A stretch of 64,000 nucleotides of DNA. Origin: Tricholoma matsutake (lineage: Eukaryota; Basidiomycota; Agaricomycetes; Agaricales; Tricholomataceae). Positions 2,434-64,000 of this stretch are shown piece after piece (position 1 is the stretch's first letter; the number at the start of each line of letters is the position of its first letter). Under the pieces are notes generated by a model that saw only the letters and a program-made list of their open reading frames with translations, was not told the origin of the DNA and did not search any database. A program made the position numbers and the translations under genes. Location of the stretch: NCBI GenBank assembly GCA_026075535.2, contig AP026545.1, forward strand, positions 4,712,001-4,776,000, in the 5' to 3' direction.

Positions 2434-3123
2434 TAGTGTTTAAAGGTCTGGTATGGTCCAGTTTTTTGACCTCCAAGAGGGGCAACCAGCAACCGCAACC
2501 GAACTGAGTAGGACCGGTCCACATCAGTTTGGTTGCCCCCAAAAAACCGGTTAAGACCGGTCTTAGTCACCATGAGGGGTGGGTTCCTTTCCCGTGATGA
2601 TATACCCCGCGAGTCATGTCACCATGAGGTGCGGGTTTCTCATTTCTGTAATAATTTTGTACATTGCGGGAAAAAACCCACGAGTCATGTCGCCATGAGG
2701 CACGGGTTCCTTTCCCACAATGATATAACCCGTGAGTCAGGTCACCATGAGGTGCAGGTTTCTCATTTCTGTAATAATTTCATATCTTTTCAGCAAATTA
2801 TTACGGATATGAGCAACCCATGCCTCATGGTGACATGACTCATGGGGTATGTCCTCGTGGGAAGGGAACCCACACCTCATGGCGACCTGACTTGCGGGTT
2901 TTTTCCTGCGATGTACACATCTTTTATGCACTGCAGAAAGACTGGTTGCAACTGATGGCAACTGGTCTTTTAACGGTTTTCAAATATTTTCAAAATGAGG
3001 CAACCGGCAACTGGAACGACCCCAAATGTGGGCAACCGCAACCAATGGTCCGGTTGCATTCAGTCCAGTTCAGTTTGGTTGTGGTCATTTTTTCAGTTGC
3101 ATTAACCAGACCTTTAAACACTA
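2434..3123. mobile_element. hAT-1: non-autonomous hAT-type DNA transposon
   Basis: The ends are inverted: TAGTGTTTAAAGGTCTGG on the left, and its complement CCAGACCTTTAAACACTA on the right. The flanks are ACGAGCTC (2426-2433) and ATGAGCTC (3124-3131), an 8-bp target-site duplication with one CpG-to-TpG change. The T-A-G-N-G terminus and 8-bp duplication are diagnostic of hAT elements. The 690-bp interior has no transposase frame. It holds two direct and one inverted copy of a block built on CACCATGAGGTGCGGGTTTC, which could form long hairpins. Confidence 0.85.
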
Positions 3124-3643
3124 ATGAGCTCTACCACCCCTCGTACCCACTGTGTTGGCTTCTATGGCCAAGATTGATGTGTGAAGCCTGTTCAGCCAAA
3201 TTCTGGCAGATGAAGCTGATGCTAAAGACTCTCTGTTGACCACCAAAATTTCACAGGCATTTTATGTGAACAAAGAATGGGGCAAAGAAGACATGTTCAA
3301 GGTGGGAGACAAGGTCATGTTATCAACACTACATTGAAGACAAGAATGGAAAGCTGGAGATAAGAATTGTGTCGCTAAGTCCTTCCCCAGATTTGATGGT
3401 CCCCACCCCATTATGGAAGCACTCCCTGACTTCTCTGCTTATACCCTAGACCTTCAAAATTCACCTGACGTGTTCCCTACCTTCCACACATCCGTACTGA
3501 AGCACTACCACCCCAACGATCCTGAATTATTCCCATCCTGAGGATTCACATGCCCTGGCCCGATTGTCACTGCTGATGGTATCAAAGAATACACCATTGA
3601 GAAAATCATCGATGAAAGGAAAAGAGGATGAGGCCACCAATAC
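3124..3643 (+). pseudogene. gypsy-A integrase C-terminus and first half of chromodomain
   Basis: After the hAT insertion the frame resumes with a region typical of the integrase C-terminal domain: KISQAFYVN, VGDKVMLS, FPRFDGPHPI and FHTSVLKHYHPND. It then enters a chromodomain (EYTIEKIIDERK near 3589-3628). The chromodomain is cut at 3643 by gypsy-D1 and continues at 11371. The TGA codons near 3336, 3540 and 3630 align with arginine positions in such domains. It is not functional. Confidence 0.75.
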
Positions 3644-4349
3644 TGTTAAGAACTGATCCTAGAAGACGCGTTGGAATCTGATTGGTCACTGTGGGTGATA
3701 ATAGTGGGAGTTTGTCGGGTCGATGCAGATTCTATGGGAGGGGAAACAGAAAGGACTTGGCTTGAGCTTGTAAGAAGCTGCACCCTTCACCTCGTCTGGT
3801 GTCCTAATTTCAAGTCGAAGGTCTGGAGGTAGGAGCAGGAAAGTGTGGGTAAATGCAGGGAGGAGTATGGAGGGACTTAGGTTAAGTTCAGGTGAGGTTA
3901 GGCCTTCAGAGGGAGACTAGAGGTCGAGTTGAACAGAGTTCAGACTCTTAGAGAACTGAGGTTGGAGTAGAAGGAGGTTTAGATTGGCAGGATAAAGTCG
4001 AGTCTATGTTGATATACGAACTAAGGAATACAAGGTGAAACTAACTAAGCTTAAATACTGTAGTCCGGAATAATGTGGAACAGGAATGAAGACTGTGGCA
4101 GTGTCTCGACTGTGTAGATAAATTATCTAGCGGGAGCCACACAGGAATCCGTAGTCGAATATGCAATAGAGATGGCAGCCTTGGGAAGGCAGCCATGGAT
4201 GCTGTACAAGGCGGCCTTGTGCACAGCAGTGTGGGCAGTGCAAGGCGGCCAGGAACAAAATCGGGAGGAGTAGACAAATGTCAGGTTTGACGTGCGGAAA
4301 AGGATCAGACGGATGTGGGTTCCGATCAGGCGAGGAACAGTTCTTGACA
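3644..4349 (-). repeat. 3' LTR of gypsy-D1
   Basis: On the minus strand it starts TGTCAAGAACTG and ends TTCTTAACA, giving TG...CA termini. It is 706 bp and is nearly the same as 10672-11370 and, in the other orientation, 57912-58616. Confidence 0.93.
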
Positions 4350-4484
4350 GTATTTCCCCCTTAGTGCCGAGCCTACGAGGCACATGAGTGTTTGAGTCCA
4401 AATAAGGAAGTTGGTTGAATTTCCGAATGTGGTAATTGGTTGAAAAATTTTCACATTCTTTCCTTCCTCCATCAACTATCAAAT

Positions 4485-5473
4485 ATGTCCCCCCCAGCAG
4501 TCTCCACGCAGATCAAAATGGCTGCGATGAAGGCCCAACACGAACAGAGGGAGCGGGCACTGAGGGAGCAGATGGAAAAGGAGATGAAGGAGCTGGAGGA
4601 AGCAGCGAGGGAGGAGGAGCACTGGGCGTAGGAGGCGCAAAAGGCAGCAGAGGAGGCTGCAAAGGTGGAGGAGGCGCACCAGGCAGAGGCATGGAAAAAG
4701 GAGGCATCAGCCACAAAACGAGTGGAGAAGAAGTGGGCAGCTGCAGCTGTGGGTTTGGAGGATGAGGCCAAGGGGAGCAAGTCCCCAAAGAAAAAGAAAG
4801 TTGCCAAGTCGAAGGCACAAGTGGGGATGGAGGAGTCAGAGGGTCCGGTGCGGGTGCAGGCTGCGTTGCCCTGCAAAAGGTGCGTACTTGTTTCCCTTCT
4901 CAGTCTTCTCTTACTGATAAGTCGCCTAGATGCAAATATCAGAAGATTGCTTGTTTCAAGATGGGTGTGAGGGGACATGTGTGTGACAACTGCACGTGCA
5001 TCAAACATAAGTGTGAGGAGGTAGTGTGGGAGGGGCAGGAGGCCCCTGCAGCAAAACTGGCAGGAACGATGGGGATTAGAGGGGAAAACCTGGAAGTAAT
5101 GCAGCAGATGATGAAGTTGATAAGGAAGGGGTTTGCTGAGGTGGCTACTGCGGTGCAGGAGTCGATGGGGGAGATCTGGGACGCTTTGGACCCAGAGTGG
5201 GTGGAGGAAGAAAGCACCGGGGAGGAGAGCGACAAGGGTGATGAAGAGGTGGAGTGGGTGGTGCGAGAGTCCTGGCAGGAAAGACACGGGATCCACAAGT
5301 CCGGAGATGACTGGGCGGCCTTCCAGAGGTATCTGGAGAAAAGGCAGGCGGATGATGGGGAGGAGAGTGAGAGTGGAGAGGAGGAGAGTGGAGAGAAGGA
5401 CGAGGGCGGAGAAGAGGGCAAAGTTGGGGGAGAGGGTGACGAAGACAGAGAGGGAGAAGCAGAGGTAGTGTAG
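4485..5473 (+). CDS. Antisense Zn(2)Cys6 coiled-coil acidic protein carried by gypsy-D1
   Basis: This gene lies between pol and the 3' LTR but is coded on the strand opposite to gag-pol. Exon 1 (4485-4879) starts at an ATG and encodes a charged Lys/Glu/Ala coiled coil (about residues 10-110) with a KKKK-type basic patch. The intron (4880-4929, 50 nt) is GTGCGT...CTGAT...TAG. Exon 2 (4930-5473) follows. Splicing gives C-X2-C-X6-C-X9-C-X2-C-X6-C, the exact spacing of a fungal Zn(2)Cys6 DNA-binding cluster, starting PCKRCKYQKIAC. A helical middle and a very acidic Glu/Gly/Asp tail end at TAG 5471-5473. The spliced frame is about 312 codons. One TAG at 4629-4631 lies in exon 1 and probably replaces CAG (Gln), so this copy is damaged. 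A DNA-binding regulator is inferred, not shown. G1 and D2 carry homologues at the same position. Confidence 0.7.
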
Positions 5474-5561
5474 GGATCCGGTCGGATCCAAAGAAAAAAT
5501 TGTTTTTCAATGAAATTTGTTTCTGAGTTCAGACTGAGTGAATAAGTAACGTGAATAGACT

Positions 5562-8500
5562 TTAAGCGGGTAATGGTCCGGGTTTCTGTGGGTAGCAGGT
5601 GTGAAAATCCGCAAGGAGTTCTTGGGCATGGTCAAGTTCCATAACAGGTAGCCAGGAGGTCTCTTCATCGGTTCCCTGGTAACCTTCCCATCGGATGAGG
5701 TAGAGAATCTTGCAGCGATGTTGGTTGTCGACCTTGGAGTCGAGGACTTCAGTGATCTCATATTTGAGCTCGTCATTGATGGTGATCGGAGGAGGGGGAG
5801 GTTGAACTCGATTTGGAATTGTGTTTGGGGAGTGTTTCTCTAGTTGAGAGACATGGAAAACAGGGTGGATGGCCTGCATGTGATCCGGGAGCTGCAGGGT
5901 GACTGAGTGAGTGCCCAGGTGGGCAATGATTTTGAAGGGGCCATGGTTCTTTTCAGAAAGTTTCTTGGAAGGACGAGTGGTGCGGATGTTTTCCGCAGTG
6001 ACGTAGGCAGAGTCACCAATGTTGAAGTTGGGTGTGGGTGCTCGATGTTTATCTGCAGGGCCTTGATAATGCTCTTGAGCAGCCGCAAGCTGTTTCTGAA
6101 GTTCCTGATGAAGGTTGTCTAAGTCGACGATGAACTTGCAGGCATGCTGTGAGGCTAAGTCACATTCGGGGAAGACAGAAATGTTCGGGTGATAGCCTTT
6201 GTTGGCAAAGAAAGGGGATATGCCTGTAGAGGTGGAGGGAGCATTGTTGTAGGCAAATTTGCCCAAGGGTAAGAGGTGAGACCAGTCATCCTGCTGATAA
6301 TTGCAGAAGATCCAGAGGTACTGCTCCAAGGTCTGATCAAGTCATTCTGTCTGACCATCACCTTGCGGGTGATAACTGGAAGTGAAGTGGATCTGCATAT
6401 TGAGCACTTTTCCGAGGGAGCGGAAGAAATGGGAGATGATCTCAGATCCCCAGTCACAAGTGATGTGCGATGGAACACCATGCTTGGAGAAGATGTGGAG
6501 GACAAACAGGTTGGCTAGTTCTTGGGCTGTGATTTCATTAATAGTTGGGATGAAGATGCCTTGTTTGGTGAGACAGTAAACAATGACCAGGATAGCGGTG
6601 TGACCATTGGAGTCAGGTAGTTGCTCAATGAAATCCATGGAGATGGAGTTCCAAGGTCATTCTGGAACTGGAAGTTGCTTTAGAAACCCGTAGGGCTTGT
6701 GTCAAGGTGATTTGGATCATTTGCAAGTGGTACAGGATTTGCAGAATTCCTGCACAAAGGTGTGGAGGTTTGGCCAGACATATTCCCAGTGGACAAGCTG
6801 CTGGGTTTTGTTTTGTCCGAAGTGGCCAGAGAGGATATGATCGTGTTTGTATTGAAGGACTTTGAGGTGGAGGTCCACGACGTCCGGAACATAAATCCAG
6901 TCGAAGTGGTGGAGAAGACCTGCCTCGTCTATGGTCCAGTTGGGGTTGACAAGTGTCAGAAGATGTGCGGATGATAAGGGGTCAAGGGGTAGAGAGGTGT
7001 GGATATCATTGTGAAGTTTCTCAACATCCATGATTACTGCTTGTTGAAGGATGGGTGTGGCGAAATAGGTGGTGTGAAGGGAAGAGGTAAGCTGTTCCTG
7101 TGTGAATACAGGTCGGAAGTTGGTTGGGCTTATGGAGGCGAAGTTGCTATTTCCCCCTTTGCAGTAGATGTCCCAATGTCTAGTGAGTGCATCTGGCTTG
7201 GCCCCTAATTTTCTGGGGTGGAAGCAGATGACGAGATTGAACTGGGAAAGGTATTCAGACCAATGGGCCTGGCGGCGGGTGAGCAACTTAATAGTTCTGA
7301 AGTACTCAAGATTTTTGTGGTTGGTGACCACATCAACTGGGTTTGCAGAACCCTCAAAATACTGCTGCCAGTGTTTGAAGGCTTCAAAGATGGCCAAGAG
7401 TTCCTTGTCATGGGTGTTGTAATTTAGTTCAGCGGGATTAAAGGAGCAGGAATGAAAAGCGACCGGATGGATTTCTCCATCCATAGTATAAACCAAAAGG
7501 ATTGCCACTAGGGCATAGTCGGAAGCGTCAGTTTTGAGTACCATCTGTGAGTCAGGTACCCATTGAGTTAAGATGGGGGCATGAGTGAATTCTTGTTTAA
7601 GCTTTTCAAAAGCATCGTGGCACTTCTTGTTAAAGTCCCAGGGTGTGGATTTCCGCATCAAGCAGGTGAGTGGAATGACAATGTCTAATGGCTGTTAATG
7701 AAGTGGTGGTAAAAGTTGCAAAAGCCTAAGAAGGATTGTATATCCTTAACTCTCCTAGGCTCAGGCCAGTCGAGCATGGTTTTGACTTGATCCTCGGACA
7801 TCCGCAGTCCATCTGGTGAAAGGATGAAACTAAATATTCAACAGTGTCTTTGTGGAACTCACATTTCTGTGGAGAGGCGTAAAGTCCATTTTTCTGGAGA
7901 TGGCGGAGGATTTCTTTAACGTGAGCCCCGTGCTGGGACTTGTCATCTGAATAGATCAGGATGTCGTCAAGGTACACGATGACACAAACATCCAGCATGT
8001 TGCTGAAGATGTTGTTCATAAACCGCTGGAAAGCTGCAGGTGCATTAGTGAGTCCAAAGGGAACCACCTACCACTCAAAGGATCTGTAGTGGGTGTGGAA
8101 AGTGGTTTTCCACTCATCACCATCAGCGATGCAGACTAGATGATAAGTGTGCCGCAAGTCTATCTTAGTGAACAAGCGGGCTTTTCGGGGGGAGTCGAGG
8201 AGGTCAGAAATGAGAGGAAGTGGGTAGTGGTCTTTCTTTGTAAGACGGTTGAATCCTTGGTAGTCGACACAAAGTCAGAGACTACCATCCTTCTTCTTGA
8301 CGAAGAGAATTGGAGCACCATGTGGAGACTTGGATGGGCGGATGAAACCTGAGCAGATGTTTTCATCAATGAAGACTCATAAGGCTTCTAATTCAGAGGG
8401 AGAGAGAGAATACATGCGGCCTGGAGGCAGAGGAGTGTTGTCTTCTGTCTCTATCTTGAGGTCGTAAGACTGATGCAGAGGAAGGGTATCCACTTTAGTC

Positions 8501-9240
8501 TTATTAAAGACATCAGCAAATTCGTGATACTTGGGTGGAATATCGGAAAAGTCAGATGAGTTAGCAGATTGGGCAGAGTGTGCGAATAACCCTTCTGGAG
8601 CAAAGGTCATCTGAAAAGCTACTGCCCCAGGAAGTTTGCTAGCATGCGCATAAGCAGCAGCGTTGATGAAAGAGATGTTGGGAGGTGTAAACTTAGGAGG
8701 AATTGTGGGTTCAGAAAGTGAGGAGAAGTCGAGGATTTCTACTGGAAGGTTTGGGGGCAAAGGTGACGTCAGGGGTGCCAGACCTCTATGATCTGCAGAG
8801 CAGAAAGCGAGTTGGCTTGTAGACCAGTCAATCAATGGATTGTATTGCTTCAGCCAGTTATGACCAAGTATGGTGGAAGAGGAAGAGTCGAGCGAGGTTA
8901 CATAGAATGACAAATTGAACACTTCACCGGCAGGGAAGGTGACTGGAAGTTTGACGACCTGAGTTATGGTGGAGTTGCAAGATCCATCAAAGAGTCATAA
9001 ACCGATCGGGTTAATGGATTCTGTGCTGAGTTGGTTATTCAACATGAAAGAGGAGTCAAGGAAGCAGTGGGAGGAGCCAGAGTTGATAAGGGTTTGGAAA
9101 GGGGTGGAAGAGTTGGGAAAGGTTAAAAGAATAGTTAGGGAGTCAGGATAGGAAAGAGCAGATACGTTGAGACAAATGTAGGCAGCCAAATGGGTAAGGT
9201 CAATGCAACCCCCAGCCCCAATGGCTGTTTCCTGAGGGTT
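5562..9240 (-). pseudogene. pol of gypsy-D1: protease, RT, RNase H, integrase, chromodomain
   Basis: On the minus strand the protease is near 9070-8380, with LINSGSSHCFLD where the usual active site is D-S-G; the Asp is Asn here. The reverse transcriptase follows (8330-7730) with an intact [12 protein letters not shown]. RNase H (7661-6900) has KTDASDYAL, DKELLAI and VVTNHKNLEY, where the usual TDHKN Asp is Asn. The integrase (about 6890-5900) has MDFIEQLP, a TCDWGSE acidic motif and GDGQTE. The chromodomain ends the frame (YEITEVLDSKVDNQHRCKI ... EETSWLP, 5790-5562). TGA stops and frameshifts separate the blocks. The D-to-N changes fit CpG decay on the other strand. Confidence 0.9.
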
Positions 9241-9344
9241 GTGGACTATTTTTCTGAGTCCATAGTGTCGGGAATGACAATGGATGCATGGGCTTTTGGG
9301 GCTTTGGATTTCAGGCAGTTTCCTGCTATGTGCCCTTCCTCACC

Positions 9345-10636
9345 ACAGTAGAGACAAAGTCATTCTCTCATGCGACATTCTCGTTCCTCCCCAGTGAGCT
9401 TGCCATTCTTCCCCAACTTATCGGAGATGGACAACTTGGGCTTGTCCCGGGGAGTGTTCTTTGTCGTGGAAGACTGCTGGTTGGAGGTGTTACCGTGGGT
9501 GGAGTTTGAAGAGGCTTGGTTTGTCAACAGGGAAGGACTTTTGGAAGAGTCCTTCTGACTAGAGTTAGTGATGTTACTGGAATTCTTTGTTTCAAAATGG
9601 GATTCATCTTCTTGCATCCAGTAGATGTCGTCGCTGTCCTGCGCTTTCAAGCACAGTTCCGCAAGAGTATTGGGTTTACCACCCCAGAGAACTTCTATGT
9701 GAAGCCAGAGTGGAAGACTGCAGAAATCGCGGTCACGAAGGGCTGCTTCATTCCAATTGACCCTAGAAGCTAATTCCCAGAAGTCAATGTTATATTTCGT
9801 GATATGACCACCTTTCTTCATTGTTAAGTCAGAGAGAGCTTTTTCTGCATCTCCAACTGGGTCGTGCAGACTGAAGTTACTTTCCAGCTCGGTGAGGAAA
9901 GCTTCATAGTCCCACATCGAGTGTGTGGAATCTGTCGGATCATTAAGACCAGGCTCAAACCAACTGAGAGCTGATCCTTTAAGATAAGAAAGGATAAATA
10001 TGATCTTTTCCTCATCAGAGGAAAATACATGTGGACGGTCGCGGAAATGAAGGTTGCAGGAGACTAGGAAGTCTCTAAGTTTCTTCAGATTGGCACAGTC
10101 AAAAGTGTCGGGGTCGCAAACTTTGATTTTCTTGGTCTTGGGTGTGTTATTTTGACGAAGGGTGCAGATACTCTCTGAGAGGTTGTAAAGGACATCTATG
10201 AACCTATCCCCTGGGTCAGGGTTTTCCCCCGTGGGAGGTTGATCCTCAGGATCATTGGGATCAGGGTCACCCCCAGGGCCGTCAGGACCACTAGGGTCAT
10301 CAGGTCCGCCGGGGGGTCTGTCCTCTAGACCAGGATCTTCCAACCCAAAGGGTTCAGGCTGGTTGATGCCCCTATGTACTCAAGGGGAGTTCTTGATCGA
10401 AAACCTTCCAGGTTGGCAGAAGGGTGTGGGGAATGGGTGGACATGAGATTGGCACTGATTGAAGGGGCTCCTGAGCCGATTGGTCAGAATATGTTTGAGG
10501 GTCTGGAAGACACTCCAAAAGTAGTGGCGGGATGAGGGTCAGAAAGGGTGGATCACTGGATTGCAGAGATCCCTGGAATAGTACCAGCATGTTGGGAATT
10601 TCTTGTTGTGCACTGGCAGGTCTCAGTAGGGGTCAT
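9345..10636 (-). pseudogene. gag of gypsy-D1
   Basis: The frame begins at ATG 10634-10636 on the minus strand, matching the start of the D2 gag. It passes a proline/glycine/aspartate-rich linker (about 10340-10200). Next comes the capsid-like gag domain with SYLKGSALSWFEPGLND and LHIEVLWGGKP. The C-terminal zinc knuckle reads CLYCGEEGHIAGNC (CX2CX4HX4C). A one-base loss in a G run near 10370 and TGA codons, including one just before the knuckle, break it. It would package the element RNA. Confidence 0.88.
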
Positions 10637-10671
10637 AGAGGGGAATGGGATGAGTGTGAGTTTGTATATAC

Positions 10672-11370
10672 TGTTAAGAACTGATCCTAGAAGACGTGTC
10701 AGAATCTGATCGGTCACTGTGGGTGATAATAGCAGGAGTTTGTTGGGTTGATGTGGATTCTACAGGAGGGGAAATGGAAAGGACTTGGCTTCAGCTTGTT
10801 AGAAGCTGCACCCTTCACCTCGTCTGGTGTCCTAATTTCAAGTCGAAGGTCTGGAGGTAGGAGCGGGAAAGTGTGGGTAAACGCAGGGAGGAGTATGGAG
10901 GGACTTAGGTTAAGTTCAGGTGAGGTTAGGCCTTCAGAGGGAGACTAGAGGTCGAGTCAAATGGAGTTCAGACTCTTAGAGAACTGAGGTTGGAGTAGAA
11001 GGAGGTTTAGATTGGCAGGATAAAGTTGAGTCTATGTTGATATATGAACTAAGGAATACAAGGCGAAACTAACTAAGCTTAAATACTGTAGTCTGGAATA
11101 ATGCGGAACAGGAATGAAGACTGTGGCAGTGTCTTGACTACATAGATAAATTATCTAGTGGGAGCCGCACAGGAATCTGTAGTCGAATATGCAATAGAGA
11201 TGGCAGCCTTGGGAAGGCAGCCGTGGATGCTGTACAAGGTGGCCTTGTGCACAGCAGTGTGGGCAGTGCAAGGCAGCCAGGAACAAAATCGGGAGGAGTA
11301 GCCAAATTCAATGTGCGGAAAAGGATCAGATGGATGCGGGTTCTGATCGGGCGAGGAACGGTTCTTGACA
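10672..11370 (-). repeat. 5' LTR of gypsy-D1
   Basis: Its 699 bp match 3644-4349. It ends exactly at the AATAC target duplication. The internal sequence next to it on the minus strand starts GTATATACAAACTC. This lacks the TGG expected for a tRNA 3'-end primer, so priming may be unusual. Confidence 0.93.
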
Positions 11371-11590
11371 AATACCTTGTCTGCTGGAACAGTTTTGGCA
11401 CAGAAGATGACCGATGGTTACCATGACATGAACTCGAGGACTGTGAAGTGCTGGATAAGTGGCTTGCACATATGGAATAGGGACACGCAGTAGCTTTTCC
11501 CACTGGGTTTTTGATGCACCTGTCGTGAGGTTGATGTTGAAATTTTCTCATTTTTGTTTTTATTTGAACTGTGATTGCTTATGCCATCTA
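11371..11590 (+). pseudogene. gypsy-A chromodomain, second half
   Basis: The frame continues from 3643 with YLVCWNSFGTEDDRWLP, a TGA and HELEDCEVLDKWLAHME. This is the hydrophobic/aromatic second half of a chromodomain with its C-terminal helix. The coding part ends by about 11500, and the rest has no recognisable domain. Confidence 0.75.
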
Positions 11591-13205: not shown

Positions 13206-13800
13206 TGTTAAGTTCTGAGCTGGGGGAAGGAAGTCATCAGATTTTTGGCCATACCCAGACATTAGAAGTTGATAAGGATGGATCAAGTAAGGCAGGGAAC
13301 CCAATGGGGATCCAGGGCAAGGTTCACTTGATGTGTCATATCAAGTGGGGAACAGAAAGGACTTGGCTTCAACTTATAAGAAGTTGTACCCTTCTCCTCA
13401 TCAAGTGTCCTAATTTCAAGACAAGGGTAAGGAGGATGATCAGAGGCCCAGGGATTTTCTGGAGAGGATGAGCAAAAGTTCAAGATAGACTTAAGAAAGT
13501 AGTTGGAGCATAATTGGGATGGAATTAAGTGGGAGACTTGGTTGATTTACAAACTGCTGATACAAGATGAAAGTAGCTAGCTTAAATACTAAAGGCCAGA
13601 GGCAATCAGAGTTTCCGAGGCTGTGATAATTTGCAAACTGGCCTCTGAGACAAATATCCTGAAACTGTTTCATCAAATTGGAAATGAGGGAATTTCACCT
13701 CTAGGCAGTGCTGCTGATAGGAGGTGGGCTGTGATGCAAGGCAGCTGGGAAGGGTGGTGGAAAACAATCAGAAATCTGGTTGAGAGAATCGGCCTTGACA
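13206..13800 (-). repeat. 3' LTR of gypsy-G1
   Basis: This 595-bp LTR starts on the minus strand at the TGTCAAGGCC end (13800) and ends at CTTAACA (13206). It is near-identical to 18881-19471 and, inverted, to the solo LTR 19540-20129. Confidence 0.9.
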
Positions 13801-13956
13801 GTATTTCCCTCTTAGTGCCGAGCCTACGAGGCACATGAAGGTTTGAATCCAAATTGGGCAATTATTTCTTCTTTGTTGACTTTGATGGGGTTCCCAGGTC
13901 TTCCTACAACCACTACCACCACCACTATCACTCACACCCGCACCTACCACACCACC

Positions 13957-14217
13957 ATGTCTTCTGTAACCTCGCACACAGAGAATATAGTGGCCCTCAG
14001 TGCCCAGCAAGAAAAGTTGATGGAGGAGCTTCAGCTTGAGGAAGAGGTGAGGGAGGCAGAAGAGCACTGGGTCGCAGAGGAGGCTGCAAGGGTGGAGGCA
14101 GCCAGACTTGAGGTGGAGAAAAAGGCCATGGAAGAGGAGCAGAGGAAAGTGGCTGCCACCAAAAGGGTGGAAAAAAAGCGGAAGGCTGGGGAAGTGGGGC
14201 CCCCAAGAAGAAGGTGA
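13957..14217 (+). pseudogene. Antisense coiled-coil gene of gypsy-G1, truncated
   Basis: The ATG at 13957 starts MSSVTSHTENIVALSAQQEK. A charged coiled coil then ends VAATKRVEKKRKAG, which matches VSATKRVEKK-type sequence of the D1 antisense protein (4485-5473). After the stop at 14215-14217 the DNA resembles only the extreme 3' end of the D1 gene (GGGATCCGG near 14257). The intron, the Zn(2)Cys6 cluster and the acidic tail have therefore been deleted. Position and strand are the same as in D1, which supports an inherited gene of this retroelement lineage. Confidence 0.6.
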
Positions 14218-16051: not shown

Positions 16052-17363
16052 TAGTGTTTAAAAGTCCGGTCCAGTCCGGTTTTTTTGATGACAACAGGGG
16101 CAACCATGGACCGGACCGGTTGCTTACATGCTCAACATCAAGGCAACTGAGGACCGGACTGGTGTAAACCGGTCCTACTCGGTTGCCTCACGGTTGCCAA
16201 ACCAGTTTAAAACCAGTCCATACTTAGACTGGTCCTGACCAGTTCACAACCAGTCAGGACTGACTATTTGTACACTAATATACATGTCTCGAAGTAATAT
16301 ATTTTGAAAACTAGTAGTAGTAATATAAGTAAACACTACAGACAAAACCATAAATGAATGGCTAGACCATGTGGCTAGTGCTTTGGGGGGTGTATCTATA
16401 TCATATATGTAGTGTCTAATCCAAGTTTAACGAAAGGATACATTGAACCATTATTGAATTACGGTTCTACAGAGTTTTCAGAGGAATGAGGAGGAAGGGT
16501 TGCTTACCATAGATGAATGGTTGTACCGTTTGACTAGTGCTTTAGGGAGCACATATATATAATATATATTGTATTTAATCCAAGCTTACGAAAGGATCGG
16601 TTGAGCCATTATTGAGCTACAGTGCTATGGAGTTTTCAGAGGAATGAGGAGGAAGGGTTGCTTACCATAAATGAATGACTGTACCGTTCAACTAGTGCTT
16701 TGGGGAGCATATATATATGCTATATATAGTGTCTAATCCAGATTTACGAAAGGATTCATTCAGTCATTATTGAATTATAGTCCGACAGAGTTTTGAGAGG
16801 AATAAGGAGGAAGGGTTGCTTACCATAGATGAATGGTTGCATCGTTTGACTAGTGCTTTTGGGAGCATATATATATAATATATATGGTACTTAATCCAAG
16901 TATATGAAAGGATCGGTTAAGCTGTTATTGAATTACAGTGATACGGAGTTTTCAGAGGAATGAGGAGGAAGGGTGTTTACCATGAATGAACCACTGCACC
17001 ATTGAACTAGTGCATTTGGGTGGATGTAGATATACTCTATACAGTGTGGAATCCTGGTTTATGGACATAGCTGTTAAGGCATTACAATCCTACAATAACT
17101 TATTTAGTCAGTGCCAGCACACAGATTACTTGTATCACATGTAATCAATTGATCACTTGCCTTAGCAACACATCAAATTATGATCAAAGACCGGTTGGAA
17201 CTGGTCTTTACCCGGTCCATAATTATTTGAAAAACTATGCAACTGGCAACCGGACTGGTCCACAACCGCTGCTGCAGAACCTGCAAGACAGACCGGACCG
17301 CAGTTGGGTCCGGTTTGGTTGCTGGTTTTTTTTCGGTCCATGCAACCAGACTTTCAAACACTA
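16052..17363. mobile_element. hAT-2: non-autonomous hAT element containing a tandem satellite
   Basis: The inverted ends are TAGTGTTTAAAAGTCCGGT on the left and GACTTTCAAACACTA on the right. A perfect 8-bp target duplication GTACTGAA lies at 16044-16051 and 17364-17371, inside the gypsy-G1 RNase H. No transposase frame is present. The outer 250 bp at each end are rich in CCGGT/ACCGG words in both orientations. The core (16347-about 17060) is five tandem units of about 158 bp. Confidence 0.9.
16347..17060. repeat. Satellite array 1, five ~158-bp units
   Basis: The unit marker ACCATARATGAATG (diverged in the last unit) recurs at 16347, 16506, 16664, 16822 and 16979, giving periods of 159, 158, 158 and 157. 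Each unit also has GGAATGAGGAGGAAGGGTTGC-like sequence and an AT-rich TATATATAATATAT stretch. A diverged, inverted array is at 47870-48550. Confidence 0.88.
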
Positions 17364-18880: not shown

Positions 18881-19471
18881 TCTTAAGTTCTGGGCTGGGG
18901 GGAGGAAGTAGTCAGATTTCTGGCTGTACCCAGATGTTAGAAGTCATAAGGATAAATTGAGTAAGGCAGGGAACCTGACGGGGATCCAGGGCAAGGTTCA
19001 CTTGATGTGTCATACCAAGTGGGGAACAGAAAGGACTTGGCTTCAACTTATAAGAAGTTGCGCCCTTCTCCTCATCAAGTGTCCTAATTTCAAGACAAGG
19101 GTAAGGAGGATGATCAGGGGTCCAGGGATTTTCTGGAGAGGATGAGCAAAAGTTTGAGATAGACTTAAAAGAGTAGTTGGAGCATAATTGGGATGGAATT
19201 AAGTGGGAGACTTGGTTGATTTACAAACTGCTGATACAAGATGAAAGTAGCTAGCTTGAATACTAAAGGCCAGAAATCAGAGTTTCTGAGGCTGTGATAA
19301 TTTGCAAACCGGCCTCCAAGACAAATATCCTGAAACTGTTTCATCAAATTGGAAATGAGGGAATTTCACCTCTAGGCAGTGCTGCTGATAGGAGGTGGGC
19401 TGTGATGCAAGGTGGCTGGGAAGGGTGGTGGAAAATGATTGGAAATCCAGTCGAGAGAATTGGTCTTGACA
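18881..19471 (-). repeat. 5' LTR of gypsy-G1
   Basis: The 591-bp copy of 13206-13800 ends at GGTCTTGACA (19471). The first bases at its inner end are TCTTAAG instead of TGTTAAG. The adjoining internal sequence on the minus strand is GTATTTACAAGCTCTC. Confidence 0.9.
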
Positions 19472-47869: not shown

Positions 47870-48550
47870 GCCATTTATCTCTCTTGCAAACTGGTACTGT
47901 ACATTACATATAGTATATCTACCCTCTCCCCAAAGCATTAGCTGATTGACCCAGCCATTGTTGTTTGGTATGCGCCCCTTTTTCCTAGTTTACCTAAAAA
48001 GCTCATCTCATTCTATTTCCATAACTCTTCAGTGGACTTTTTTGCAAACTGGTATTATACATTAAATATAGCATATCTACATGGTCCCCAAAACATTAGC
48101 TGAATGACACAACCACTCTTTTTTGGTATGCACCCCTTCCTCCTAGTTTACCTAAGAAACTCATCCCACTATATTTCCACAATGCTTGAATGGATCCTTT
48201 TGCAAATTTGTACTGTACATTATGTATAGTATATATACACCCTCCCCAAAGCATTAGCTGAATGAATTAGTCATTCTTTTTGTATGCACACCATCCTCCT
48301 AGTTTACCCAAAAAGCTTCATTCCACTCATTTCCATAATGCTTCAATGGATCCTTGTGGAATTGGAATTCTGTATAAAGTATAATATATCTACACCCTCA
48401 CAAAGGCATTACTTGATTGACCCAACCCTTCTTTGTGGTAGACACACATTTCTCCTAGTGTCTCTCAAAAGTCTGTAACACTGTATTTCAATAGCGCTTT
48501 AGTGGATTAGTTCATACATTTGTATTCTAGGACAAATATAATATATGTCT
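47870..48550. repeat. Satellite array 2, about four ~158-163-bp units
   Basis: The unit marker CATTAGCTGA-TGA (CATTACTTGATTGA in the last unit) recurs at about 47934, 48092, 48251 and 48414. Units contain CCTCCTAGTTTACC and ATTTCCATAA-type blocks. In reverse complement the unit aligns with array 1 (16347-17060), with shared CTCCCNAAAGCAYTAG and GGTAWGC-CCTTCCTCCT blocks. Confidence 0.8.
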
Positions 48551-57430: not shown

Positions 57431-57911
57431 ACACTTCCAGATGCTTCGACACATCATCACACATGTTCCCAACCCTACAAACCTCATGAAACCACTCTGA
57501 AACTATTTCATAACACTTCAAACAACTTCAAACAATTTTGAACAACTTCGACTGACTTTGCAACACTTCGAGCAAGTTCAAATGACTTTGCAGCACCTCG
57601 AACACCTTCGGCTGCTGTATGCCTATTGCACCTCCCTTCAGACACACACAGCATACCTTGCACAAGTTAGTGCATCACATATCGAGCACCACCGGACACA
57701 AGGAGATACGACAACACACTTTTAGGACATGATTGTGGCACTTTGATGTTTCGATGATATATTGGATCAATAGGACAGGTACCCTTGATACATCATGACT
57801 CTATATGTCTCCCTTTTGATCATCTCTCATTTATCTTATGATTTGGAAAGTTCTTATTGTTTTATATCTTGCCTCATGTAGTCCTCATGTTTTATTTCCT
57901 TTTAAGTACCT
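57431..57911. other. Noncoding gap between gypsy-C2 and gypsy-D2
   Basis: No gene is seen. From 57500 to 57610 it has a degenerate short repeat of the type AACACTTCGA-AACTT with several TTCGA palindromes. The rest is AT-rich. It ends with the GTACC that would be the left target duplication of gypsy-D2. Confidence 0.5.
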
Positions 57912-58616
57912 GTCAAGAACCATTCCTCGCCTGATCAGAACCCGCATCCATCTGACCCTTTCCTGCATGTCAAACATGACTTTTGTCTACGCCTCCCGAT
58001 TTCGTTCCTGGCCACCTTGCACTGCCCACACTGCTGTGCACCAGGCCGCCTTGTACAGCATCCACAGCTGCCTTCCCAAGGCTGCCGTCTCTATTGCAAA
58101 TTCAACTACAGATTCCTGTGCGGCTCCCACTAGATAATTTATCTATGCAGTTGAGACACTGCCGCAGTCTTTGTTCCTGTTCCGCATTATTCCAGACTAC
58201 AGTATTTAAGCTTAGTTAGTTCCGCCTTGTATTCCTCAGTTTGTATATCGACATAGACTCGACTTTAATCTGCCAATCCAAACCTCCTTCTACTCCAACC
58301 TCAGTTCTCTAAGAGTCTGAAATCCATTCGACTCGACCTCCAGTCTCCCTCTGAAATTCTAACCTCATCTGAACTTAACCTAAGTCCCTCCATACTCCTT
58401 CCTGCATTTACCTGCACTTTCCCGTTCCTACCTCCAAACCTCCAACTTGAAATTAGGACACCAGATGAGGTGAAGGGCACAGCTTCTTACAAGCTGAAGC
58501 CAAGTCCTTTCCGTTTCCCCTCCTGCAGAATCCACAACGACCTGACACCCTTCCATAAACAACACCTGCAGTGTCCGATCAGATTCCAACAAACCCTCTA
58601 GGATCAGTTCTTAACA
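57912..58616 (+). repeat. 5' LTR of gypsy-D2
   Basis: It starts TGTCAAGAACCATTCC and ends CAGTTCTTAACA. It is 705 bp and matches the two gypsy-D1 LTRs in reverse complement. The adjoining primer region is GTATATATGAACTC. Confidence 0.93.
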
Positions 58617-58656
58617 GTATATATGAACTCACACTTCACTCATCCATTTCCTCTCT

Positions 58657-60060
58657 ATGACCCCTATTGAGACCCACCAGTGCACAACAAGAAACTCCCA
58701 ACGCACTGGTACTATTCCAGGGATCTCTGCAATCCAGCGATCCACCCTTTCCGACCCTCGACCTGCCACTACTTTTGGAGTGTCTTCCAGACCCTCAAAC
58801 ATCTTCCAACAAATTGGCTCAGGAGCCCCCTCAATCAGTGCCAATCTCATGTCCACCCATGCCCCACAACCTTCCAGCAACCCAGAAGGTTTTCAATCAA
58901 GAACTCCCCTTGAGTACATAGGGGGCATCGACCAGCCTGAACCCTTTGGGTTGGAAGATCCTGGTCTAGAGGATGGACCCCCTGGCAGACCCGATGACCC
59001 TAACAGTCCTGACGGCCCTGGGGGTGACCCTGATCCCAATGATCCTGAGGATCAACCTCCCACGGGGAAAACCCTGACCCAGGGGATAGGTTCATAGATG
59101 TCCTTTACAACCTCTCGGAGAGTATCTGCACCCTTCATCAGAATAACACACCCAAGACCAAGAAAATCAAAGTTTGCGACCCCAACACTTTCGAGAGTGC
59201 CAATCTGAAGAAACTTAGAGACTTCCTAGTCTCCTGCAATCTTCATTTCCGCGACCGTCCACACGTATTTTCCTCTGATGAGAAAAAGATCATATTCATC
59301 CTTTCTTATCTTAAGGGATCAGCTCTCAGTTGGTTTGAGCCTGGTCTGAATGACCCGACAGATTCCGCACACTGGATGTGGGACTATGAAGCTTTCCTTG
59401 CCAAGCTGGAAAGCAACTTCGGTCCACACGACCTGGTCGGAGATGCAGAAAAAGCTCTCTCTGACTTAGCAATGAGGAAAGGTGGTCATATCACAAAATA
59501 CAATGTTGACTTCTGGGAATTAGCTTCTAGGGTCAACTGGAATGAAGCAGCCCTTTGTGACCACTATTTCTGCGGTCTTCTGCTCTGGCTTCACATAGAG
59601 GTTCTCCGGGGTGGTAAACCCAATACTCTTGCAGAACTGCGCTTGAAAGCGCAGGACAGTGACAACATCCACTGGATGCAAGAAGATGAATCCCATTTCG
59701 AAACAAAGAATTCCAGTAACATCACTAACTCTAGTCAGAAGGACTCTTCCAAAAGCCCTTCCCCATCAACAAACCAAGCCTCTTCAAACTCTGCCCATGG
59801 TAACACCTCCAACCAGCAGTCTTCCACGACAAAGAACACTTCCCAGGACAAGCCTAAGTTGTCCATCTCCAATAAGTTGGGGAAGAACAGCAAGCTTACT
59901 GGGGAGGAATGAGAACGTCACATGAGAGAACGACCTGTGGTGAGGAAGGGCACATAGCAGGAAACTGCCCAAAATCCAAAGCCACAAAAGCCCGTGCATC
60001 CACTGTCGTTCCTGAGACTACGGACTCAGAAAAATAGTCCACAACCCTCAGGATACAGCC
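58657..60060 (+). pseudogene. gag of gypsy-D2
   Basis: The frame from ATG 58657 runs through the Pro/Gly/Asp-rich linker. It shifts near 59062, where one G of a GGGGG run present in gypsy-D1 is lost. The capsid-like domain continues in another frame (SYLKGSALSWFEPGLND, LHIEVLRGGKPNTLAEL) to a TGA at 59910-59912. A 10-base loss just before the zinc knuckle removes its first Cys (CGEEGHIAGNC remains). Confidence 0.88.
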
Positions 60061-60093
60061 ATTGGGGCTGGGGGTTGTGTTGACCTTACCCAC

Positions 60094-61024
60094 TTGGCTG
60101 CCTATGTTCATCTCAACGTGTCCGCTCTTTCTGACCCTGACTCCCTAACCATTCTTCTAACCTTTCCCGACTCTTCTGCCCCTTTCCAAACCCTTATCAA
60201 CTCTGGCTCCTCCCACTGCTTCCTTGACTCCTCTTTCATGTTGAATAACCAACTCAGCACGGAATCCATTAACCTGATCGGTTTACGACTCTTTGATGGA
60301 TCTTGCAACTCCACCATAACTCAGATTGTCGAACTTCCAGTCACCTTCCCTGCTGGTGAAGTATTCAATTTGTCATTTTATGTAACCTCGCTCGACTCTT
60401 CCTGTTCCACCATACTTGGTCATAACTGGCTGAAGCAATACAATCCGTTGATTGACTGGTCTTCAAGCCAACTCGCTTTCCGCTCTGCAGATCATAGAGG
60501 TCCAGCACCCCTGACATCACCTTTGTCCCCAAATCTTCCAGTAGAGATCCTTGACTCCTCCGCATTTTCCGAAACCCCCATTCCTCCTAAATTTACACCC
60601 CCCAACATCTCCTTCATCAACGCTCCCACTTATGCGCATGCTAGCACACTTCCTGGGGCAGTAGCTTTTCAGATGACCTTTGCTCCAGAAGGGTTATCCA
60701 CCCGCTCTGCCCAATCCGCTAACTCATCCGACCTCTCCGATATTCTGCCCAAGTATCACAAATTTGCTGATGTCTTTAATAAGACTAAAGCGGATACCTT
60801 TCCTCTGCATCGGTCTTATGACCTCAAGATGGAGACAGAAGACAATACTCCTCCACCTCCAGGCCAAATGTATTCTCTCTCACCCTCTGAATTAGAAGCC
60901 TTACGAGTCTTTATTGATGAAAATGTCCGCTCAGGTTTCATCCGCCCATCCAAGTCTCCGCATGGCGCTCTGATTCTCTTTGTCAAGAAGAAGGACGGTA
61001 GTCTCCGACTTTGTGTCAACTACT
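60094..61024 (+). pseudogene. gypsy-D2 protease and RT start
   Basis: The protease has LINSGSSHCFLDSSF (catalytic Asp replaced by Asn) and the conserved STILGHNWLKQYNPLIDW. A Ser/Pro linker is followed by RT motifs [38 protein letters not shown] and KKDGSLRLCVNY. The frame stops at a TGA at 61024 where Arg is expected (NYRGLN-type motif). Confidence 0.9.
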
Positions 61025-62236
61025 GAGGACTTAACCATCTTATGAAGAAAGACCACTACCCACTTCCTCTCATTTCTGACCTCCTTGACTCTCCCTGAAA
61101 AGCCCGCTTATTCACCAAGATAGACTTGCAACATGCTTATCACCTAGTCCACATCGCTGACGGTGATGAGTGGAAAACTACTTTTTGCACCCACTATGGA
61201 TCCTTCGAGTGGTTGGTGGTTCCCTTTGGACTCACTAATGCACCCACAGCTTTCCAGCGGTTTATGAACGACATCTTCAGCGACATGCTGGATGTTTGTG
61301 TTATCGTATACCTCGACGACATCCTAATCTATTCCAATGACAAGTCCCAGCACGGGGCTCACATCAAAGAAGTCCTCCGCCATCTCCTGAAAAATGGACT
61401 TTACACCTCTCCACAGAAATGTGAGTTCCACAAAGACACCGTCAAATATTTAGGTTTCATCCTTTCACCAGATGGACTGTGGATGTCTGAGGATAGTCAA
61501 AACTGTGCTTGACTGGCCCGAGCCTAGGAAAGTTAAGGATATACAATCCTTCTTAGGCTTTTGCAACTTTTACCGCCGCTTCATTAATGGCTATTCAGAC
61601 ATTGTCATCCCACTCAGCCGCTTGATGCAGAAATCCACACCATGGGACTTCAACAAGAAGTGCTGCGATGCTTTTGAAAAGCTCAAACAAGAATTCACCC
61701 ATGCCCCCATCTTAACACAATGGGTACCTGACTCACAGGTGGTACTCAAAACCAATGCTTCTGACTATGCCTTAGCGGCTATCCTTTCGGTTTACACTGC
61801 GGATGGAGAAATCCATCTGGTCACTTTTCATTCCTGCTCCTTCAATCCCACTGAACTAAATTATGACACCCATGATAAGGAACTCTTGGCCATTTTCGAA
61901 GCCTTCAAACACTGGCGGCAGTATTTCAAGGGTTCCGCAAACCCAGTTGATGTGGTCACCAACCACAAAAATCTTGAGTACTTCAGCACTACCAAGTTGC
62001 TTACCCACCGCCAGGCCCATTGGTCTGAGTACCTTTCCCAGTTCAATCTCATCATCCGCTTCCACCCCGGAAAATTAGGGGCCAAGCCAGACGCGCTCAC
62101 TAGACGTTGGGACATCCACCGCAAAGGGGGAAATAGCGACTTTGCCTCTGTAAACCCAACCAACTTCCAACCTGTATTCACACAGGAACAGCTCACCTCT
62201 TCCCTTCGCGCCACCTATTTTGCCACACCCATCCTT
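61025..62236 (+). pseudogene. gypsy-D2 RT and RNase H
   Basis: RT continues with [38 protein letters not shown] and an intact [14 protein letters not shown] small deletion near 61490 shifts the frame. RNase H then has SQVVLKTNASDYALAAIL (first Asp to Asn), DKELLAIFEAFKHW, VVTNHKNLEYF (Asp to Asn) and AKPDALTRRWD. TGA codons at about 61098 and 62237 fit former CGA codons. Confidence 0.9.
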
Positions 62237-63720
62237 TGACAAGCAGTAATCATGGATGTTGAGAAACTTCACCATGACATCTGCACCTCCCTACCCCTTG
62301 ACCCCTTTCATCTGCACATCTTCTGACACCTATCGACCCCAACTGGACCATAGATGAGGCAGGTCTCCTCTGCCACTTCGACCGGATTTATGTTCCAGAT
62401 GTCGCAGATCTTCGCCTCAAGGTCCTTCAGTACAAACATGATCACATCCTCTCTGGCCACTTCAGACAAAATAAAACCCAGCAGCTTGTCCGCCGGGAAT
62501 ATGTCTGGCCAAACCTCCGCACCTTTGTGCAGGAACTCTGCAAATCCTGTACCACTTGCAAACGATCCAAATCACCTTGACACAAGCCCTATGGGTTTCT
62601 AAAGCAACTTCCGGTTCTGGAATGACCTTGGAACTCCATCTCCATGGATTTCATTGAGCAACTACCCGACTCCAATGGTCACACCGCTATCCTGGTCATC
62701 GTTGACCATCTCACCAAACAAGGCATCTTCATCCCAACTGTCAATGAAATCACAGCCCAAGAACTAGCCAACCTGTTCATCCTCCACATCTTCTCCATGC
62801 ATGGTGTTCCGTCGCATGTCACTTGCAACCGGGGATCCGAGTTTGTCTCCCATTTCTTCTGCTCCCTCGGAAAAGCGCTCAACATGCGGATCCACTTCAC
62901 TTCCGGTTATCACCCACAAGGTGATGGTCAGACAGAATGACTTAATCATACCTTGCAGCAGTACCTCCAGATCTTCTGAAACTATCAGCAGGATGACTGG
63001 TCTCACCTCTTACCCTTGGGCAAATTTGCCTACAACAATGCTCCTTCTGCCTCTACAGGTGTGTCCCCTTTCTTTGCCAACAAAGGCTATCACCCGAACA
63101 TTTCCATCTTTCCAGAATGCGACTTAGCTTCACAGTGCACCTGCGAGTTTGTCGTCGACTTAGATGACCTCCATCAGGAGCTTCGGACACAGCTTGCGGC
63201 CACTCAAGAGCGTTATCAAGGTCCTGCGGACAAACATCGGGCACCCGCACCTGACTTCAACATTGGTGACTCTGCCTACGTCACTGCGGAAAATATCCGC
63301 ACCACTCGTCCTTCCAAGAAACTTTCCAAAAAGCACCATGGCCCCTTCGAAATCATCGCCCACCCGGGCACTCACTCAGTCACCCTGCAGCTCCCGGATC
63401 ACATGCAGGCCATCCACCCTGTTTTCCATGTCTCTCAACTAGAGAAACACTCCCCAAACACAATTCCAAATCGAGTTCAACCTCCCCCTCCTCCGATCAC
63501 CATTGATGATGAGCTCAAATATGAGATCGCCGAAGTCCTCGACTCCAAAGTTGACAACCGACATCACTGCAAGATTCTCTACCTCATCCAATGGGAAGGT
63601 TACCAGGGAACCGATGAAGAAACCTCCTGGCTACCTGTTATGGAACTTGACCATGCCCAAGAACTCCTTGCAGATTTTCACACCCGCTACCCGCAGAAAC
63701 CCAGACCATTACCCGCTTAA
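62237..63720 (+). pseudogene. gypsy-D2 integrase and chromodomain
   Basis: The zinc region has KHDHILSGHFRQNKTQQLV and CKSCTTC. The core has [33 protein letters not shown] (second Asp to Asn) and YHPQGDGQTE followed by a TGA. An open frame from 63016 to 63720 carries FAYNNAPSASTGVSPFFANK, FNIGDSAYVTAENIRTTRPS, LQAIHPVFHVSQLEKH-type sequence and a complete chromodomain (YEIAEVLDSKVDNRHHCKIL, EETSWLPVMELDHAQELLA). Five TGA codons occur in the front part. Confidence 0.9.
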
Positions 63721-63793
63721 AGACTATTCACATTACTTATTCACTCAGTCTGAACTCAGAAACAAACTTTATTGAAAAAAGATTTTTTTATCC

Positions 63794-64000
63794 CTACACT
63801 ACCTCCACTTCTCCCTCTCCGTCTTTGTCACCCTCTCCCCCGACTTTGCCCTCTTCTCCACCCTCATCCTTCTCCCCACCCTCCTCATCTCCACTCTTGC
63901 TCTCCTCCTCATCATCCACCTGCCTTTTCTCCAGATATCTCTGGTAGGCCGCCCAGTCATCTCCAGACTTATGGATCCCATGTCTTTCCCGCTGGGACTC
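63794..64000 (-). CDS. Antisense extra gene of gypsy-D2, C-terminal part
   Basis: On the minus strand the frame is open from the window edge to TAG at 63794-63796. It reads RERHGIHKSGDDWAAYQRYL, then EKRQVDDEEESKSGDEEGGE, and ends GEGEVEVV. This is almost the same as the acidic C-terminus of the D1 antisense protein (5280-5473). The shared frame, stop and position support a real coding sequence. The Zn(2)Cys6 part would lie beyond the window. Confidence 0.7.
   Translation of the reverse strand, partial: ESQRERHGIHKSGDDWAAYQRYLEKRQVDDEEESKSGDEEGGEKDEGGEEGKVGGEGDKDGEGEVEVV

Follow-up and report, generated by a model that had tools for sequence, protein, structure and literature searches.

Antisense genes in LTR retrotransposons

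Extra open reading frames placed antisense between pol and the 3' LTR, the arrangement called aORF-3R, have been described in plant gypsy elements: gene23 of maize Grande, rice RIRE2, and Retand, whose TRP28 domain is predicted to bind DNA (PMC7264820, PMC11963269, excerpts). On this point the literature agrees with the initial annotation of the locus studied here, which had pointed to such ORFs in plants. The function of the antisense extra genes of LTR retrotransposons is presented as an open question in the excerpt available of PMC7264820. The nearest precedent in kind is brtn of Boty, a fungal chromodomain gypsy element in which this gene occupies the interval from pol to the 3' LTR in antisense (excerpts of PMC7264820, PMC8365987, PMC4227169). 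brtn is likened to the gene described below by position and orientation, not by sequence, and its host is an ascomycete, whereas ours is a basidiomycete. Among retroviruses, HBZ and APH of HTLV come from antisense, spliced transcripts driven by the 3' LTR and provide a nuclear regulator of proviral transcription (PMC10186651, in part). HBZ is of the bZIP type and represses proviral transcription, whereas the fungal protein carries a six-cysteine cluster, so that the two are compared by layout alone.

With the plant aORF-3R genes, the present gene shares its position, its orientation, its presence across copies, an element-gene-like conservation and a proposed DNA-binding or regulatory role (excerpts of PMC7264820, PMC11963269). 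Retand belongs to a plant non-chromovirus lineage, whereas we deal with a basidiomycete chromodomain element whose antisense gene has a conserved intron; a six-cysteine cluster is not described for the plant genes in these excerpts. Antisense accessory ORFs of LTR retrotransposons are known already, and no Zn2Cys6-like one in a fungal retrotransposon was found among the titles and opening lines of abstracts of the open-licence literature searched.

The host element

The window, that is, the whole stretch of 64,000 nucleotides that was analysed, contains one element of 7,727 bp around the antisense gene. Its parts are as follows.

3644..11370, sense strand minus: gypsy (chromovirus) element, from LTR alignment, flanks and pol domains
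3639-3643 and 11371-11375: target site duplication AATAC, 5 bp, flanking the element
3644..4349, minus strand: 3' LTR, 706 bp, preceding the antisense gene, from LTR alignment
10672..11370, minus strand: 5' LTR, from LTR alignment
5562..9339, minus strand: pol pieces (protease-like, RT, RNase H, integrase with H2C2 and core, SH3-like, C-terminal chromodomain)
9360..10379, minus strand: gag-like open frame, 339 codons, named from position alone

With Pfam-type models, RVT_1, RT_RNaseH, Integrase_H2C2 and Chromo were found above their cut-offs in the window pol, in the domain order of gypsy elements; rve matched at 29.0 bits (cut-off 32.6). The element is a chromodomain Ty3/gypsy retrotransposon (chromovirus). 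Its pol is split over several separate frames, and its 5' and 3' LTRs are 92.8% identical. The gypsy element marY1 of Tricholoma matsutake, of the same host and superfamily, is about 6 kb long with a 426-bp LTR (excerpt of PMC10627285), and the window element is set apart from it by these sizes alone.

Structure of the antisense gene

Between the end of pol (5562) and the 3' LTR, on the strand opposite to pol, the following parts were recognised.

4485..4879, plus strand: exon 1, with a helical-looking N-terminus, a basic stretch of SPKKKKV type and the start of the first CxxC
4880..4929, plus strand: GT-AG intron, 50 nt, phase 2, within the first CxxC, GTGCGTACTT...CTTACTGATAAGTCGCCTAG
4930..5473, plus strand: exon 2, with the rest of the six-cysteine cluster, a conserved EEVVWEGQEA, a predicted helix, an acidic tail and a TAG stop

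The initial annotation had placed a gene here, antisense to pol, and had noted that removing the 50-nt intron gives a particular cysteine spacing. Both statements stand. The pol domains lie on the minus strand between LTRs flanked by the AATAC duplication, and the spliced frame 4485-5473, of 312 codons, reads C-x2-C-x6-C-x9-C-x2-C-x6-C and contains CKRCKYQKIACFKMGVRGHVCDNCTCIKHKC. A CTGAT branch-like site is present in the intron. The six-cysteine motif with a GT-AG intron of 45 to 60 nt occurs a single time in the window, and was absent from all eight shuffled windows. Exon 1 of the window copy is interrupted by an in-frame TAG (4629-4631), and this copy is therefore unable to make the full protein.

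Copies in the genome

The genome searched was that of T. matsutake (161,040,721 bases, 13 contigs), a species for which a telomere-to-telomere genome has been published (PMC10211490, in part). Two sets of loci were collected. A DNA search with the window ORF gave 626 candidate places, of which 40 were scored and the 30 most similar copies were taken; a protein search with exon 2 gave 835 candidates, of which 150 were scored and 30 loci were retained by protein score, a choice biased to intact copies. Together, the 60 loci correspond to 52 unique places (8 repeats). The genome holds hundreds of relatives of the window copy.

Of the 30 DNA-chosen copies, four had an uninterrupted frame from the start codon to the final stop. 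Over all 30, 179 of 180 cysteine codons were intact, a count made independently of the motif scan and equalled by random sets of six codons in 2.3% of draws, and the full six-cysteine spacing was present in 29 of 30. All 30 copies kept the GT and a CTGAY branch-like site; 28 kept the AG. When the neighbourhood of the unique loci was inspected (50 of the 52, L043 and L059 being left out), the C-terminus of pol was found antisense downstream of the gene in 50 of 50, and a 3' LTR upstream of it in 48 of 50. We take the antisense gene to be accessory to a chromodomain Ty3/gypsy lineage, with aORF-3R position and orientation across copies. The earlier proposal that the element lineage carries the gene is borne out by conserved cysteines and codon constraint (see below) in the copies examined, which are part of all copies.

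A second, inverted copy of the element's family lies at 57911-64000 and ends at the window edge (90.2% identity over 6,119 columns). The exon-2 protein search of the genome places its antisense gene at C8:4775911-4776339, and the portion inside the window is the following.

63794..64000, minus strand: C-terminal part of the antisense gene of the second copy, start estimated via alignment offset

A second gypsy family and a database relative

A search of 5.8 billion proteins with a single-copy query gave no relative other than P0001, a database protein of 218 residues from a 970-base contig. With an alignment of seven sequences as query, P0001 alone was found again in the same number of proteins, scoring being confined to the 7,991 candidates with the most words in common. 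P0001 has all six cysteines and aligns without an intron across the junction. Its source may be a transcript that was spliced, perhaps in another fungus, or an intronless DNA copy.

Using P0001 as query against the genome, we obtained 1217 candidates, scored 150 and analysed 12 loci of about 1 kb each. Nine of them (L061-L069) form a second group, of CKRCSNQKLSCF type, and three (L070-L072) are closer to the window's family. Within the second family, the full splice and cysteine layout was found in L063, L065, L066 and L068, one cysteine was changed in L064 and in L069, and L061, L062 and L067 were placed by protein alignment alone. The phase-2 intron, the cysteine spacing and the antisense position are the same as in the window's family, while identity between the families is 50 to 59% over the cysteine region and 40 to 46% over the whole protein. 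Four neighbouring stretches were compared for pol: its C-terminus was found antisense beside L068 (74% amino acid identity to that of the window), L066 (70%) and L071 (85%), and none was found beside L072. The window itself has an element of the second family, with a remnant of the gene.

13957..14217, plus strand: antisense gene remnant of the second gypsy family, resembling this family's N-terminus, the cysteine-cluster part missing
about 13206-13800 and 18883-19471: LTRs of the window's second-family element

The intron across the genome

An exact pattern of the intron-bearing gene, with GT, TAG and 47 to 53 bases fixed and other forms outside its reach, matched 210 places in the genome, and none with the reversed control. 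Exact patterns of the spliced junction, one per family type, had 0 matches in the genome. Among 100 listed matches of the intron pattern, 24 had a length of 48 (3), 49 (9), 51 (11) or 52 bases (1); the others had 50. A change from 50 to 48 or 49 bases would shift a continuous frame, yet in L070 and L071 (48-base intron) the exon frames are kept on both sides, as splicing predicts. In L072 (51-base intron) they are kept over the cysteine cluster, after which a stop is reached. The second-family intron has 48 bases, and unspliced reading hits a stop at its 5' end in L061, L062, L064 and L067.

From these patterns we infer that the antisense gene is spliced once. The intron is antisense to the genomic RNA. 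It would therefore not be recognised and removed before reverse transcription, and would survive transposition.

Selection on the reading frame

Pairwise dN/dS was computed on 38 copies for exon 1 and 38 for exon 2. Before the counts, L036, L043, L059, L061, L062 and L067 (unplaced by the scan) were left out, together with seven repeats; further exclusions were 10 loci without a recognised start, five without the DPEW anchor, six second-family or decayed loci by design, and, for exon 2, five loci at more than 30% difference. The predicted frames gave a ratio of 0.30 for exon 1 and 0.28 for exon 2, the remaining plus-strand frames 0.68 to 1.06, and the reverse frames 0.38 to 1.08, the lowest two values (0.38, 0.54) being those of shadow frames. 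The constrained frame switches exactly at the intron. The initial annotation had pointed to a comparison with the reverse frames, and in the part of the copies used here constraint is strongest in the predicted frame.

We then separated shared substitutions, present in at least three copies, from singletons, using only the 30 DNA-chosen copies. Each class was counted relative to the majority codon, under a simple weighting of transitions and no term for CpG decay. For shared substitutions, N/S relative to expected was 0.48 (exon 1) and 0.49 (exon 2), compared to 1.62 and 1.07 for singletons, a significant difference in counts between the two classes (Fisher P = 5e-5). In these copies the C-terminus of pol behaved likewise, with 0.41 for shared substitutions and 1.48 for singletons (P = 1e-12); shared counts of the ORF and of pol were not significantly different (P = 0.27). 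Coding conservation comparable to gag-pol, as expected of an aORF-3R, is seen here as 0.48 to 0.49 against 0.41 for the pol C-terminus. In the wrong plus-strand frames the shared class gave 0.75 to 1.64, the 0.75 coming from one exon 1 frame, and in the six reverse frames 0.65 to 1.50, where the lowest values, 0.65 and 0.75, belong to shadow frames with common third positions.

The minus strand over the antisense gene is also open, as a frame of 344 codons. This frame was rejected as a real gene, its shared-substitution ratios being 0.75 over the exon 1 stretch, where it is a shadow frame, and 0.97 over the exon 2 stretch.

Constraint bears on shared and not on private substitutions, a sign that selection acted on the element and not on the host locus: it is the element lineage, and not each locus, that appears to have been selected to encode the protein. 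We interpret this as a protein required for as long as the lineage was being copied, with drift setting in once a copy was stranded. The coding status of the antisense gene and its selection at the element level are well supported by these substitution patterns.

Two alternatives may be weighed at this point. In the first, the antisense RNA alone would matter, through dsRNA or interference, and the frame would be incidental. Noncoding antisense LTR transcripts do exist (PMC7264820, excerpt), but a constraint that is specific to one frame and switches at the intron, together with conserved splice sites and conserved cysteines, makes this scarcely credible. In the second, a host transcription factor gene was recently captured as cargo and has no function for the element. 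A host-type intron and a Zn2Cys6-like motif would fit such an origin, and LTR elements are known to transduce host genes (PMC7264820, excerpt). Against it, the gene occupies the same place in two families whose pol C-termini are 74% and 70% identical to that of the window, no host relative turned up in the two protein-database searches or in the Zn_clus genome search reported below, and the constraint is on shared, not private, substitutions; we hold a recent capture to be highly improbable. A selected antisense gene, predicted to be spliced, suggests that the element makes its own regulator.

Nature of the encoded protein

The seven aligned sequences have in common a charged N-terminus, a P-K-x-K basic stretch and a six-cysteine cluster ending in KHKC, followed by EEVVWEGQ, and all seven have DPEW. 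The AlphaFold2 model of P0001 has a helix at residues 2-48 (pLDDT > 90), and helices are predicted also at 132-170 and 179-200; pLDDT is below 50 over residues 57-85, 87-104 and 110-130 and most of the cysteine region. A coiled coil had been annotated; what is predicted, for this relative, is a long N-terminal helix. The acidic tail, also annotated, agrees with the charge computed on copy L008, whose C-terminus is acidic.

The cluster had been described as having the spacing of GAL4-type zinc clusters, to be checked with the Zn_clus profile. Its exact spacing is conserved, but membership of the family is not established: Zn_clus (PF00172) on three isolated domains scored 10.4, 9.6 and 8.0 bits, at most half of the cut-off of 21 (best E = 0.75). 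Nor was Zn_clus among the family matches of two full-length copies; a genome search with it gave 21 places, and comparison by eye showed none of them to be a listed copy of the gene. Searching the PDB with a profile of the domain returned no Zn2Cys6 chain, and sequence searches of Pfam, NCBIfam and the PDB gave no significant family. A PROSITE-type Zn2Cys6 pattern matched 28 of 30 copies as well as L063 and L068; it did not match L066 or P0001. The likeness to GAL4-type proteins consists of the cysteine spacing, basic residues between the cysteines, and helical and acidic regions; the differences are the score below the Pfam cut-off, a helix placed before the cluster (the coiled coil of GAL4 comes after it), the KHKC motif, and a C3-C4 loop that lacks proline. 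It is plausible that the protein works like a Zn2Cys6 protein, and it is probably DNA-binding.

A different assignment, a CCHC zinc knuckle (C-x2-C-x4-H-x4-C), was tried and rejected: its second cysteine is Met in 49 of 50 loci by the motif-scan count, and its His position is occupied by H, R, C or Q. The best PDB matches to the cysteine stretch include HIV nucleocapsid, at E = 0.07 with one sequence and E = 1 with a profile, neither of them significant. Membership of the nucleocapsid family was rejected because the knuckle ligands are not conserved.

These matches bear on the possibility that the antisense protein is a nucleic-acid-binding accessory of replication (an RNA or cDNA chaperone, or a helper of nuclear import or integration) rather than a regulator of transcription. 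The retroviral knuckles are among the best matches, though not significant ones, and the basic stretches and a constraint indistinguishable from that on pol would fit replication as well as regulation. The knuckle ligands are nevertheless lost where six cysteines with Zn2Cys6 spacing are kept, and RNA chaperones do not usually have an acidic tail. We regard a role in replication as somewhat doubtful.

A conserved block and a possible regulator

Directly inside the 3' LTR, a short block was found in both families of the window.

4350..4407, plus strand: block with the inverted repeat GTGCC-N10-GGCAC, polypurine-tract-like (PPT-like) on the sense strand

Positions 4350-4407 are identical to 13801-13858 of the second family at 52 of 58 bases, while the LTRs of the two families align well only over 89 and 60 bases (83% and 78%). 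A 27-base pattern of the block, in which C/T and G/A were allowed at CpGs, matched the genome 221 times and the control 0 times. The block adjoins the polypurine tract, 78 to 135 bases upstream of the antisense ATG; it could take part in reverse transcription, be part of the antisense promoter, or be a binding site.

The anatomy of the gene makes a regulator role of the antisense protein probable. The gene would be transcribed in the direction of pol, starting on the side of the 3' LTR, with a single splice; the N-terminal helix would dimerise the protein, the conserved SPKKKKV-like stretch would direct it into the nucleus, the Zn2Cys6-like cluster would bind DNA, and the acidic tail would recruit or block the host transcription machinery. 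The likeliest target, as a guess, would be the element's own LTR/PPT-proximal region, with control of sense transcription, antisense transcription or both, by analogy with the antisense HBZ of HTLV-1, which regulates its provirus. This is our best explanation: a selected, spliced antisense accessory gene encoding the element's own regulator, acting likely on the LTR/PPT-proximal region. We consider it evenly poised between right and wrong, and against it count the Zn_clus score below cut-off, the PDB search without a Zn2Cys6 chain, the low confidence of the model, the values below 1 in shadow frames and in one wrong plus-strand frame of exon 1, and the possible origin of P0001 from an intronless copy.

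A more specific version is advanced as a tentative possibility: the zinc-cluster-like regulator of the chromovirus, made from a spliced antisense mRNA, may bind the inverted-repeat block and switch between sense expression, that is, transposition, and antisense expression. If true, HTLV HBZ would have an equivalent among retrotransposons, one whose antisense intron serves as an inbuilt label that tells protein-making from genome-making RNA. The conserved cysteine cluster, the splice marker, the two diverged families and the nearby candidate block make the regulator idea directly testable.

The block also bears on another proposal, in which the protein is an anti-silencing factor that binds element DNA and acts on chromatin or methylation. 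The listed copies of the block vary between C and T and between G and A at CpGs, as the pattern allowed, and such variation is compatible with methylation of the element; for a high-copy family, an accessory protein that binds DNA would suit this role, and the chromodomain already links the element to chromatin. No named family was matched significantly in the family searches, hence no known anti-silencing link, and we judge this role unlikely.

Other repeats in the window

At 2434-3123, within older pol-like sequence, a stretch of about 690 bases ends in the inverted repeats TAGTGTTTAAAGGTCTGG / CCAGACCTTTAAACACTA, as seen by eye, and is possibly a MITE-like insertion. It also has internal inverted repeats (by eye). 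Self-comparison of the window revealed local repeat arrays at 16347-17061 and 47881-48546, with offsets of about 158 bases.
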